This document shows, piece after piece, positions 6,948 to 44,995 of a stretch of DNA of 64,000 nucleotides. Both the position numbers and the translations under genes were made by a program. How positions within the stretch are numbered: the stretch's first letter is position 1; every line of letters begins with the position of its first letter. The notes below the pieces were generated by a model. The model was not told the DNA's origin. It did no database searches and was given only the letters and a program-made list of their open reading frames with translations. The DNA lies in assembly GCA_946407745.1 (NCBI GenBank), contig CAMJPQ010000005.1:1-64000 (forward strand). The letters are read 5' to 3'. This stretch comes from an uncultured Clostridia bacterium. Its GTDB lineage: Bacteria; Bacillota; Clostridia; Christensenellales; Aristaeellaceae.

Positions 6948-8415
6948 TTTCTGCCTCCTGCGCCGCCGCTTTGCGGACCGGCTTCTTTCCTTTTTTCAGT
7001 GTGAATTCAAAGGCGGCGCCCTCCTCAGTGTCCTTCAGGCGGATGGCCTGCCCGTGCATTTCCAGTATCCGCTGGCAGATGCTCAGGCCAAGACCGGTGC
7101 CCTTGCCGGAGGTGTGAGCCCGGTCTGCCGTGAAGAAGCGCTCAAACACGTGCGGCCTGTCCTCCGGCAGTATGCCGGTGCCATTGTCCGCCACGGTGAT
7201 GAAGCAACGGTCACCCTCCTCGCGCGTGGAGAGGGTCAGCTTGCCGCCCTGCGGCGTGAACTTGATGGCGTTGTCCATCAGGTTCACTACCACCTCCTCC
7301 AGCCGGTCGGCGTCCGCCTCCACATAGCAGGGGTCAGCGGCAAAGTCGCAGTCCACCGTCAGCTCCTTTTCCTCCAGGTCGCTCATGCGGCGGATGATGG
7401 CGCGGCGCAGCATCTCGCAGATGTCAAAGTCCGTCAGCTGCAGCTGGGCGTCCTCCCGCTCCAGGCGGGAGAGGGACAGCAGGTCGCCGATCAGCTTGGA
7501 CAGGCGGCGGGTTTCCTGCCCCACCACGGTGAGGTATTTGCCCTGATCTTCCGGGGGTATGGTGCCGTCCTCCATGCCCTGCACCAGCCCGGAAATGGCG
7601 GTGATGGGGCTTTTCAGCTCGTGGGATACGTTGGCCACAAACTCGCGGCGGTTGCGCTCTGTGTCCGCCAGCTTTTCCGCCATATTGTTGAAGGCGGAAG
7701 CGACCTCCGAGATCTCGCGCGGCGCGTTTTCAGCGTCCACACGGGCGGTAAAATCCCCGTCAGACATGGCGTGGGCAACGCCGGCGACCTGGCGCAGGGG
7801 CTTGAGCACCTGGCGGGTGAGCAGCAGCACCGCCGCGCCGGAAAGCAGCAGGGCCACTGCGGCCACCAGCAGCACCCGGGGCAGGTAGGTCTTTTCACCG
7901 CCCTCAATGGTCTGGGTGGGGGTCTGTATCAGCACAGCGCCGAGCACCTGCTCACCCTGCACAAAGGGCACGCCGACGGTAAACAGCGGCCCGGAAGAGG
8001 ACTGGGTTCGCAGGCTGATTTCCTCACCGGAGAGGATGTCGCTGAGAATCTGCCCCAAAGAGGCGGTGGTCAGCGTGGCGGCGAAATCCGGGTTTGCGGA
8101 AAGGGTCACCGAAAAGTTATCCATCATGCGCCCGCGGCGGTCCACCACGCAGATATAGGCGCCGTACTGCTCGTAGACCTGGTTGGCCTTCCAGGACAGT
8201 ATTCGCTGCGTGTCATCGTTGAAGCCGAGCATCAGCGCGGTGGTGGAGGCACGGTTGAGCGAAGCCAGCCAGGCGATTTCTCTGCCGGCGGTCTTCAGCT
8301 CTTCCAGGCGCTGCGCAGTCTGCTGGTTGCGCAGCATCACTGCCCCCAGCACCGACAGCACCGAGGTCAGCAGCACCACCACAGCCAGCATCACAGCCAT
8401 GATTCGGGCAAACAT
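6940..8415 (-). CDS. Sensor histidine kinase (HAMP, HisKA, HATPase_c)
   Basis: HELKSPIT H-box, N/G1/G2 boxes (NLMDNAIKFTP, VADNGTGI, GKGTGLGLSICQRI). Confidence 0.93.
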   Translation of the reverse strand: MFARIMAVMLAVVVLLTSVLSVLGAVMLRNQQTAQRLEELKTAGREIAWLASLNRASTTALMLGFNDDTQRILSWKANQVYEQYGAYICVVDRRGRMMDNFSVTLSANPDFAATLTTASLGQILSDILSGEEISLRTQSSSGPLFTVGVPFVQGEQVLGAVLIQTPTQTIEGGEKTYLPRVLLVAAVALLLSGAAVLLLTRQVLKPLRQVAGVAHAMSDGDFTARVDAENAPREISEVASAFNNMAEKLADTERNRREFVANVSHELKSPITAISGLVQGMEDGTIPPEDQGKYLTVVGQETRRLSKLIGDLLSLSRLEREDAQLQLTDFDICEMLRRAIIRRMSDLEEKELTVDCDFAADPCYVEADADRLEEVVVNLMDNAIKFTPQGGKLTLSTREEGDRCFITVADNGTGILPEDRPHVFERFFTADRAHTSGKGTGLGLSICQRILEMHGQAIRLKDTEEGAAFEFTLKKGKKPVRKAAAQEAENA

Positions 8416-8544
8416 CGTTCACATTCCTTTGCTTGGACATGGGCGGCAGGCCTGCCGCCTGCGTGCAGTATAGCACACCTGTCCTCCGCGGGCAATACGG
8501 ACTGAAAAGACAGGGGCTGCCAGCTTTTGTCAACAGGAAAAGGC

Positions 8545-8573
8545 TTGACATGAGCGGTTTTGTCGCCTATAAT
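8545..8573 (+). promoter_or_regulatory. Consensus sigma-A promoter
   Basis: TTGACA-N17-TATAAT with no good CDS immediately downstream. Confidence 0.85.
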
Positions 8574-8579
8574 ATCTTC

Positions 8580-8770
8580 AGCAGATGATCCTGGGGTGCG
8601 CGACAGTCTCTTGGTTTTCGCCGCATCTTCACAAATGGAGCTCGCGTCCAAGCTGTTGATGTCATGCCCCCGTCTTTGACGCTAGGGGACGGCAGAAATG
8701 CAGCGGCAGAGCACCAGCCCGTTATTCATAGCGGGTGAAAAAGCGGAGGCATCGACATCCTGGGTCATCT
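8580..8770 (+). ncRNA. ssrS: Probable 6S RNA
   Basis: About 190-nt noncoding segment just after a consensus promoter; 9-bp closing stem AGATGATCC/GGGTCATCT, extended by GGGTG/CATCC and GTCTC/GAGGC; CCCGTTA-TTCA-TAGCGGG hairpin on the 3' side; apical CGTC-TTT-GACG. Confidence 0.6.
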
Positions 8771-8831
8771 CATTTATGTACAATTCAAGACGGAAACAGC
8801 GCTGGCGGGCGAAGACTGTCAGGCTTTTTCT

Positions 8832-8853
8832 TTGCCCACGGAGGGCAATTTTT
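8832..8853 (+). terminator. Intrinsic terminator downstream of the ncRNA
   Basis: TTGCCC-acgga-GGGCAA-TTTTT. Confidence 0.6.
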
Positions 8854-8930
8854 ATGTCTTGTATTTGTCAACCCTATGCGCTACAATGGGAATACAAATC
8901 ACGCCCGACAGAGGCGGCTGGGAGGTACAC

Positions 8931-11147
8931 ATGGATATCGAAAAACTGCTTTCCGAGATGACGATAGAGGAGAAAGCGGCGCTGTGCCAGGGCGCGGATG
9001 CCTGGCACACGGTTGCTGTCGAGCGCGTGGGCGTGCCGGAGGTGTGCGTCAGTGACGGCCCTCACGGCCTTCGCAAGGTGAACAGGGACGGAGTGACCGT
9101 GAAGGCAGTGTGCTTCCCCACCGCGGTCGGCACGGCGGCTTCCTTCAGCAGAGAGTTGCTGGAAGAGCTCGGCGGGGCGATCGGTGATGCCTGCCGCGAG
9201 GAGGATGTGCATGTGATTCTCGGCCCGGCGGCCAATATCAAGCGCACGCCGCTGTGCGGGCGCAATTTTGAGTACTTCAGCGAGGATCCCTACCTCTCCG
9301 GCGAAACAGCCGCGGCCTTCATCCGCGGTGTACAGCGCAAGGGGGTCGGCACATCGCTGAAGCATTACGCGATGAACAACCAGGAGACGCGCCGCCTCAC
9401 GGTGTCCGCCGAGGTGGATGAGCGCGCCGAGCGGGAGATCTACCTCACCTCCTTTGAGCGCGCGGTGAAGGGCGGCAAGCCCTGGACAGTGATGTGCTCC
9501 TACAACAAGGTCAACGGCGTGTATTCCAGCGAGAACGAGCGCCTGCAGGAGCAGGTGCTGCGCCGCGAGTGGGGCTTTGACGGCATGGTGATGACCGACT
9601 GGGGCGCCTGCAACGACCATGTGAAGGGTGTGGCTTCCGGCGTGGAGCTGGAGATGCCGCGCTCCGGAGACGACAGCGACCGCCTGCTGGTGGAGGCGGT
9701 GAAGAGCGGCCGCCTGAGCGAGGAGACGCTGACAGAGGCGGCCCGGCGCGTGCTGCGCCTGGCGCAGCGGGTCTATGCGGCGGAGGGTAAGCCGGAGGAC
9801 TTTGACCTGGGCGTGCAGCACCACCAGGCGCGCAAGTATGCACGCGAGGCCATGGTGCTGCTGAAGAATGACGGCGCGGTGCTGCCCATCCGCGGGAATC
9901 GGAAGGTGGCCTTTATCGGCCAGTTTGCGGAAAAGCCCCGCTACCAGGGCGGCGGCTCCAGCCACATCAACGTGACAGAGGAGCTGAGCGCGCTGGAAGC
10001 GGTGCGTTCTGTGTGCCCGGTGACCTATGCACAGGGCTTTGACATGGAAACGGACAGCGTGGACGCCGCCATGGAAGCGGAGGCGGTGCGTCTGGCGGGA
10101 GAGGCCGACGTGGCTGTGCTGTTTATCGGCCTGCCGGAGCGCATTGAGAGCGAGGGCTATGACAGGGCGGACATGAAGCTGCCGCCCAACCAGAACCATC
10201 TGGTCAGCGCCGTGGCGGCCGTGCAGCCGAATACCGTGGTGGTGCTGCACAACGGTTCGCCTGTGGAAATGCCCTGGCTGAACGAAGTGCCAGCGATCCT
10301 TGAGGCCTATCTGGGCGGCCAGGCGGGCGGCGGCGCGGTGGTGGACCTGCTGTTTGGCGCGGTGTCTCCCTCGGCCAAGCTCGCGGAGACCTTCCCCCTG
10401 CGCCTGGAGGACACGCCTTCCTACCTCAACTTCCCCGGCGACAAACAGAAGGTCCGCTACGCGGAGAGCATCTGGGTGGGCTACCGCTATTATGACAAAA
10501 AGAACATGGCGGTTGCCTTCCCGTTCGGCCACGGCCTGACCTATACCACCTTCCAGTACGAGAACCTGCGGCTTTCCTCACCCGTTTTCAGCGGGGAGAA
10601 GATCACCGCCTCGGTGGATGTTACCAATACCGGCTCTTTCCCGGCCGCGGAGGTGGTGCAGTTCTACATCCGCCCGGACCATGCCGGAAAGGAACGCCCG
10701 GTGCGCGAACTGAAGGGCTATGGGAAGATCTTCCTGAACCCCGGCGAAACCGGCACCGTCACCGCTGAACTGGATGCCCGCTCCTTTGCCTACTGGGAGG
10801 AGGAGATTCACGACTGGTATGCCGAGCCCGGCCTGTATCAGGTGGAAGCCGCCGCGTCCAGCCGGGATATCCGCCTCTGCGCGCCGGTGGAGGTCGCGCT
10901 GCCTGCGCGGAAGGTGACGCTGAACGGCGATTCCCTGGTTCGTGACGCGCTGCAGATTCCCGGCGCGCTGGAGCTGATTGAGGAAACACGGCGCCGCTAT
11001 GGGCAGGGTGTGATGACTGATGAGCAGTGGCAGGGCTTCCGCCGCTGGTTCCACGACACGCCCCTGCACGGGCTGGTGACCTCGCTGGGGCTGTCCCGCG
11101 AGAAGACGGGCTGGTTTGTGCAGGAACTGATGAACCTGCAGAAATAA
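8931..11147 (+). CDS. Glycoside hydrolase family 3 (beta-glucosidase-like)
   Basis: VSDGPHGLRK, KHYAMNNQE, MVMTDWGA (nucleophile), C-terminal Fn3-like domain; start at 8931 after ggaggt. Confidence 0.93.
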   Translation: MDIEKLLSEMTIEEKAALCQGADAWHTVAVERVGVPEVCVSDGPHGLRKVNRDGVTVKAVCFPTAVGTAASFSRELLEELGGAIGDACREEDVHVILGPAANIKRTPLCGRNFEYFSEDPYLSGETAAAFIRGVQRKGVGTSLKHYAMNNQETRRLTVSAEVDERAEREIYLTSFERAVKGGKPWTVMCSYNKVNGVYSSENERLQEQVLRREWGFDGMVMTDWGACNDHVKGVASGVELEMPRSGDDSDRLLVEAVKSGRLSEETLTEAARRVLRLAQRVYAAEGKPEDFDLGVQHHQARKYAREAMVLLKNDGAVLPIRGNRKVAFIGQFAEKPRYQGGGSSHINVTEELSALEAVRSVCPVTYAQGFDMETDSVDAAMEAEAVRLAGEADVAVLFIGLPERIESEGYDRADMKLPPNQNHLVSAVAAVQPNTVVVLHNGSPVEMPWLNEVPAILEAYLGGQAGGGAVVDLLFGAVSPSAKLAETFPLRLEDTPSYLNFPGDKQKVRYAESIWVGYRYYDKKNMAVAFPFGHGLTYTTFQYENLRLSSPVFSGEKITASVDVTNTGSFPAAEVVQFYIRPDHAGKERPVRELKGYGKIFLNPGETGTVTAELDARSFAYWEEEIHDWYAEPGLYQVEAAASSRDIRLCAPVEVALPARKVTLNGDSLVRDALQIPGALELIEETRRRYGQGVMTDEQWQGFRRWFHDTPLHGLVTSLGLSREKTGWFVQELMNLQK

Positions 11148-18633: not shown

Positions 18634-19344
18634 TCAGCCCTGCCTGTTAGCCGCGTACAGGGCCACAGCCGCGACGCCGACCGCCGCCATGACGACAAGG
18701 AAGATGATATTTTTCCTGTCAAACCGGAGCTTTTCGACGCCGCTGTACAGGTAGCCCAGGTGCTGCGTGGGCGGTATGACGGCCCGGAGAAACAGCACCA
18801 GCAGCACTGACTCAATGGGGAACAGCGCCAGGTTTTTCACAATGCGAAGGATGTCAAACAGCGCATAATTCCGCCCCATCACATAGTGATAATAGGCCCA
18901 CATGACCGGCGTGTTGAGCACAATGTTGACAAAGAAATCCACGCAGAAGCGGGAAAGCGTGACCCGCCACACGCTGACCTCCGCCCGGTAGAGGAACAGG
19001 GCAAAGATGAGGGAGCCGGCCATTTCAATAAAGATAAAGGGAAAGAAATAGGTGCCGGTGGGAAACAGCAGGCAGCCCAGTGTGTCGGACACGGCCGCTG
19101 CAGCAAGGGCCACCACAGGGCCGAAGACCATGGCGCCAAAGGCATTGACAAAGAAGGCGACATTGATGCGCAGGTTCGCGGCAATGGGGATGGAAAGGGA
19201 TTTGAGCGCCACACGGATGGCAATCATCAGCGCGGCGAACACCAGCACGCGCAGGCTCTTGAACTCACCCAGCGCGGCGCGCCAATAGGCGGCGGAAAAG
19301 GGATGGGGGAATAACTGACGGTTGACGGACTTTGTGAATGACAA
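18634..19344 (-). CDS. folT: Folate ECF transporter S component (FolT)
   Basis: About 6-TM ECF S-component pattern (LRINVAFFVNAFGAMVFGPVVALAAAAVSDTLGCLL); TTG start after GGAGGTGG; THF riboswitch-like leader upstream. Confidence 0.8.
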   Translation of the reverse strand: MSFTKSVNRQLFPHPFSAAYWRAALGEFKSLRVLVFAALMIAIRVALKSLSIPIAANLRINVAFFVNAFGAMVFGPVVALAAAAVSDTLGCLLFPTGTYFFPFIFIEMAGSLIFALFLYRAEVSVWRVTLSRFCVDFFVNIVLNTPVMWAYYHYVMGRNYALFDILRIVKNLALFPIESVLLVLFLRAVIPPTQHLGYLYSGVEKLRFDRKNIIFLVVMAAVGVAAVALYAANRQG

Positions 19345-19400
19345 AAAACCACCTCCGAGGCAAAATATTGACCCGCAGAGGCAGTTTTCATATGTGCGCA

Positions 19401-19496
19401 GCAGTGGGATGCGCCGCAGGCACCGCGCCGGAAACCGGCTTCGTCTCATGACAACTCCCCGTCCATGAGCACTTGACGCGCCTGAAGCTACCCTGC
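19401..19496 (-). promoter_or_regulatory. Tetrahydrofolate (THF) riboswitch
   Basis: Minus strand: GGGTAG…GCGCGTCAAGTG…GACGGGGAGTTGTC…ACGAAGCC…GGCGCGGTGCC…GCATCCC, matching the THF class-I layout recalled from known folT leaders. Confidence 0.8.
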
Positions 19497-19513
19497 CCTT
19501 ACGAATCGCCCTC

Positions 19514-19542
19514 ATTATAGCGCACACCGGGAGGGATTGCAA
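19514..19542 (-). promoter_or_regulatory. Promoter of the THF riboswitch/folT transcript
   Basis: TTGCAA-N17-TATAAT on the minus strand, about 18 nt before the riboswitch. Confidence 0.75.
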
Positions 19543-19576
19543 TAGAGGAAGAAGGGCGCGCCACTGCCCCAAACCG

Positions 19577-42267: not shown

Positions 42268-42343
42268 TGGTGGAGCATACCGGATTCGAACCGGTGACCT
42301 CTACAATGCGAATGTAGCGCGCTACCAACTGTGCTAATGCCCC
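42268..42343 (-). tRNA. tRNA-Ala(CGC), CCA encoded
   Basis: Cloverleaf GGGGCAT…CTACA-TTCGCAT-TGTAG…GGTTCGAATCC…ATGCTCCACCA. Confidence 0.93.
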
Positions 42344-44916: not shown

Positions 44917-44921
44917 TTGCG

Positions 44922-44995
44922 TGGGGTTAAATGGGCTCGAACCATCGACCTTCACGATGTCAACGTGACACTCTAACCAACTGAGCTATAACCCC
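44922..44995 (-). tRNA. tRNA-Val(GAC), CCA not encoded
   Basis: GGGGTTA…TCACG-TTGACAT-CGTGA…GGTTCGAGCCC…TAACCCCA. Confidence 0.93.

Follow-up and report, generated by a model that had tools for sequence, protein, structure and literature searches.

The locus and its neighbours

The window, which is the whole 64,000-nt stretch of DNA that we analysed, holds a locus on its plus strand in which a sigma-70/sigma-A type promoter, a rod-like RNA body and two terminator-like hairpins follow one another (Table 1). It is flanked there by a histidine kinase gene, which lies on the opposite strand, and by a gene for a GH3 glycosidase. A preliminary description of this DNA, drawn up from the letters alone, had mapped the promoter, the closing stem, the inner stems, the bubble hairpin and a TTGCCC terminator with its run of five Ts, and all of these were found where it had put them; the first of the two terminator-like hairpins was absent from it.

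Table 1. Coordinates of the features at the putative 6S RNA locus
Feature	Position in the window	Strand	Basis or detail
Sigma-70/sigma-A type promoter of the 6S RNA gene, TTGACA-N17-TATAAT	8545..8573	+	12/12 consensus
6S RNA (ssrS), mature body	8580..8770	+	RF00013 33.5 bits, model 1-187; R1 132.3 bits, 8585-8770
Closing stem	8583..8591 pairs with 8762..8770	+	Fold; 9 bp including one G-U; pair probabilities 0.64-1.0 (8583-8591)
Central bubble, 5' side, with flanking U-rich strand	8612..8635	+	Structure, family alignment
Apical arm of the rod, inner helices strongly conserved	8638..8717	+	Helices 3-6 of the covariation analysis
3'-side central-bubble hairpin, CCCGTTA-TTCA-TAGCGGG	8718..8735	+	97.5% of cells paired, 23 sequences
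First terminator-like hairpin, then GCTTTTTCTT	8802..8822	+	Sequence feature; absent from the preliminary description
Second terminator-like hairpin, TTGCCC-ACGGA-GGGCAA, then TTTTT	8832..8848	+	Sequence feature

Judged from the sequence, the mature RNA would begin 7 nt past the -10 box and end at the closing stem, and a body of this extent would fit the size of a 6S RNA, about 180-200 nt, with a housekeeping promoter of its own. The two hairpins begin 32 and 62 nt past the closing stem. Downstream of them, the sequence TTGTAT-N17-TACAAT (8860-8888) and a GGGAGG ahead of the ATG suggest 8931 as the true start of the GH3 gene, in place of the upstream TTG 8832 that the ORF listing gives.

The window contains other RNA features as well. 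A THF riboswitch (RF01831, 81 bits) occupies 19400-19497 on the minus strand, ahead of a gene for a folate-family ECF transporter S component (TIGR04518, 84.1 bits); since the transporter ORF as listed (18634-19572) begins upstream of the riboswitch, its true start must lie further in. Two tRNA genes, tRNA-Ala (CGC) at 42268-42343 and tRNA-Val (GAC) at 44921-44995, are both on the minus strand.

Searches with RF00013 and with a family model

6S RNA is a bacterial RNA that imitates an open promoter and thereby restrains RNA polymerase. The preliminary description had called the element a probable 6S RNA (ssrS) and proposed a check with the Rfam model RF00013. At the curated gathering score no 6S RNA was reported in the 64-kb window, the riboswitch and the two tRNAs being the matches returned, and the element was likewise missing from the results of an automated whole-genome RF00013 search. 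With a relaxed threshold, a search of 8500-8920 matched 8585-8770 to the full length of the model (positions 1-187) at 33.5 bits (E=2.9e-5), as against a gathering score of 46.4 bits; that figure is the curators' cut-off and does not define the family biologically. Those same-genus homologues for which scores were listed also fell short of it, at 37-41 bits, and the cut-off was exceeded in 76 of 150 sampled genomes of the family.

A covariance model, R1, was built from 20 RF00013 matches over the cut-off, all from other genera of the family and none from the window's genus. R1 matched the window element at 132.3 bits, which establishes its homology to undisputed 6S RNAs. When the 3.77-Mb genome (draft assembly of 194 contigs, completeness about 96%) was searched, this was the sole match at E<=1 (E=2.9e-33). 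Strong R1 matches were present in 9 of 12 genomes of the genus, and such a match, almost always in single copy, was present in 138 of the 150 sampled family genomes, so that the local model closes most of the gap left by RF00013. One sampled genome, G166, differed from the others in having two matches, at C34:17637-17825 (L043) and C89:8823-8977 (170.1 and 122.9 bits); the second may be either a further 6S RNA or a contaminating contig. After the search at a relaxed threshold and the results with R1, we dropped the absence of a gathering-level Rfam match as a refutation of 6S RNA. The standard search misses the RNA in the window because its sequence has drifted in these rumen Clostridia.

Homologous loci in relatives

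The DNA of the region matched 23 of 60 related genomes, and in ten of these the match coincided with an RF00013 match that had been found independently. Orthologues in other genera, at homologous loci, exceed the RF00013 cut-off. A scan of a public genome collection for one genus-specific 20-mer returned nine contigs. Every one belonged to a metagenome-assembled genome of Clostridia, and where a source was named it was rumen or omasum, the host animals being sheep, goat and water buffalo. One short match in a related genome, to window positions 8794-8838, raised the possibility of a 3' repeat element, a candidate we rejected when the window's own genome gave only weak, short matches.

Directly upstream of the RNA, 41 of the 42 loci, and every one of the 9 from the genus, carried a promoter that agreed with the consensus at 11 or 12 of its 12 positions; the one exception was matched over an inner 48-nt piece only, and its promoter lay outside the scanned stretch. 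Conserved neighbouring genes were also sought among the relatives, with ORFs assessed by eye, and none were found; the ORFs beside the RNA look different in relatives, as would be expected of a free-standing RNA gene.

Fold and covariation

Inside the closing stem, GGGTG (8594-8598) faces CATCC (8756-8760) and GTCTC (8606-8610) faces GAGGC (8746-8750). Folding predicts that UUUUC (8615-8619) pairs with GAAAA (8737-8741) and that the 5' bubble strand is otherwise largely single-stranded. The arms of the 3'-side hairpin, CCCGTTA (8718-8724) and TAGCGGG (8729-8735), have pair probabilities of 0.56-0.73 in the window. By folding energy the element stood out only modestly (z = -2.0; 8 of 200 shuffled sequences did as well), so structure alone would not be proof.

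In an alignment of 23 sequences, 54 pairs in 7 helices were scored, and 91.2% of pair cells held standard pairs. Pairs changed on both sides numbered 23, as against 15.6 +/- 1.6 in shuffles (none of 500 reached as high), and cells with changes on both sides numbered 104 against 40.5. When partners were slid out of register, at most 12 pairs were changed on both sides and 45-51% of cells were paired. The 3'-side hairpin showed a compensatory change at its loop-closing pair. This alignment had been fitted to the model and is hence biased towards it; RNAalifold, given 21 sequences aligned with MAFFT alone, returned a largely matching set of helices, in which 21 pairs were compensated. Covariation supports the rod, with its closing stem, central bubble and apical arm. 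The relatives keep all the helices, with strong compensatory change, among them the closing stem, the two inner stems and the 7-bp hairpin picked out from the letters. It is the existence of homologues, their covariation and the match to the covariance model that lift the element far above chance.

Identity of the element and alternative explanations

On this evidence we consider it almost certain that 8580-8770 on the plus strand is a 6S RNA (ssrS) and the sole copy in the organism. The full-length match below the threshold, the relatives' loci above it and an R1 score of 132 bits at a single place in the genome all uphold the earlier identification. The RNA is an ordinary, if new, member of a known family, and it is unusual only in escaping the Rfam threshold.

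Its position directly upstream of the GH3 gene (ATG 8931), on the same strand, might instead suggest a structured 5' leader, that is, a cis-regulatory RNA of that gene and not a free-standing 6S RNA. Two terminator-like hairpins separate the RNA from the gene, however, and the promoter-like sequence at 8860-8888, recognised by eye, could serve GH3 separately. The RNA also stays in relatives while the flanking genes change, and it matches 6S RNA by both RF00013 and R1, which leaves the leader explanation with practically no chance of being right. Nor do we find it credible that the stretch is coding. Three short ORFs, 8698-8961 and 8735-9055 on the plus strand and 8391-8651 on the minus strand, are all open in the window, but the two plus-strand ORFs had no Pfam match (the scan covered ORFs of that strand), similarity in relatives lies largely within the RNA body, and at four relatives' loci (L004, L005, L007 and L011) stops break the frames. 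The base changes that do occur preserve RNA pairs. Protein-coding readings were ruled out on the missing Pfam matches of the plus-strand ORFs and the frames broken in relatives; no conserved protein frame spans the region, in keeping with the earlier remark that it held no convincing CDS and that ORF callers are prone to place spurious short ORFs there.

We also weighed whether the element could be a 6S-like paralogue with another partner, be it a 6S-2 or a core-polymerase-binding RNA like Ms1, in which case the main 6S RNA would fall in a gap of the genome. The incompleteness of the draft would allow this, the B. cereus group, like B. subtilis, has two 6S RNAs (PMC7726162), and G166 offers a family genome with two matches. 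Against it, the window element is the sole R1 match in its genome, and the orthologues of the genus and the family are single-copy in nearly all genomes and form one continuous series with RF00013. A paralogue is thus very improbable, and we retain the identification as the organism's 6S RNA.

Proposed function

As the sequence features indicate, the 6S RNA would be transcribed from its consensus housekeeping promoter up to the hairpin terminators. In most relatives, terminators follow the RNA body and begin within about 20 nt of it; the greater distance here suggests that the precursor is longer, probably about 245-275 nt as gauged from the sequence, and that its tail is trimmed to leave an RNA of about 190 nt. 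The folded rod would then imitate an open promoter, a mimicry carried over from the family, and bind polymerase carrying the housekeeping sigma factor (sigma-A), blocking it when nutrients are scarce. Release would come when polymerase copies the 5' side of the bubble into short pRNAs. Sequestration of sigma-A RNA polymerase with pRNA-driven release is the likely function, and 8612-8635 is the expected pRNA template, as judged from B. subtilis 6S-1 (PMC8876501). The alignment suggests candidate pRNA start sites at 8624-8627. The 3'-side bubble hairpin is predicted to be pre-formed in the free RNA.

A variant of this scheme starts from the drifted 5' bubble strand, in which UUUUCGCCGCAUCUUC replaces the UUUUUACCCACAUUUC of the family and is able to form about 8 bp with GGUGAAAA of the 3' strand. 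Either the pRNA start or the change from the polymerase-bound to the released form might therefore depart from the pattern of B. subtilis. We consider such a departure unlikely.

The consequence is mainly one for annotation: with its curated threshold the Rfam model overlooks the 6S RNA of this genus, and it does the same in roughly half of the family genomes sampled. Statements that such Clostridia are without 6S RNA would be threshold artefacts.

Comparison with known 6S RNAs

Measured against RF00013 (6S/SsrS), the window RNA agrees in sequence and structure over the full length, with about 190 nt, a closing stem, a central bubble, an apical arm and a sigma-A type promoter, and it differs in scoring below the gathering score, as do the genus relatives with listed scores. 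Elsewhere in the family, the 6S RNAs of other genera (for example L010-L014) share the same promoter and helices at about 71-76% DNA identity. They differ in lying over the RF00013 cut-off, and in most relatives no more than about 20 nt separate the body from a terminator hairpin, whereas that of the window RNA is at least 32 nt away. With respect to B. subtilis 6S-1, the difference concerns the central bubble: constrained folding with a blocked template predicted no collapse helix of the B. subtilis type (UUCAC/GUGAA) for the window RNA. The likenesses are that a U-rich 5' strand and an A-rich 3' strand, resembling P2, adjoin the bubble in both (PMC8876501), and that the 3'-bubble hairpin, which exists already in free 6S-1 RNA (PMC8876501), is predicted for the free form of the window RNA as well.
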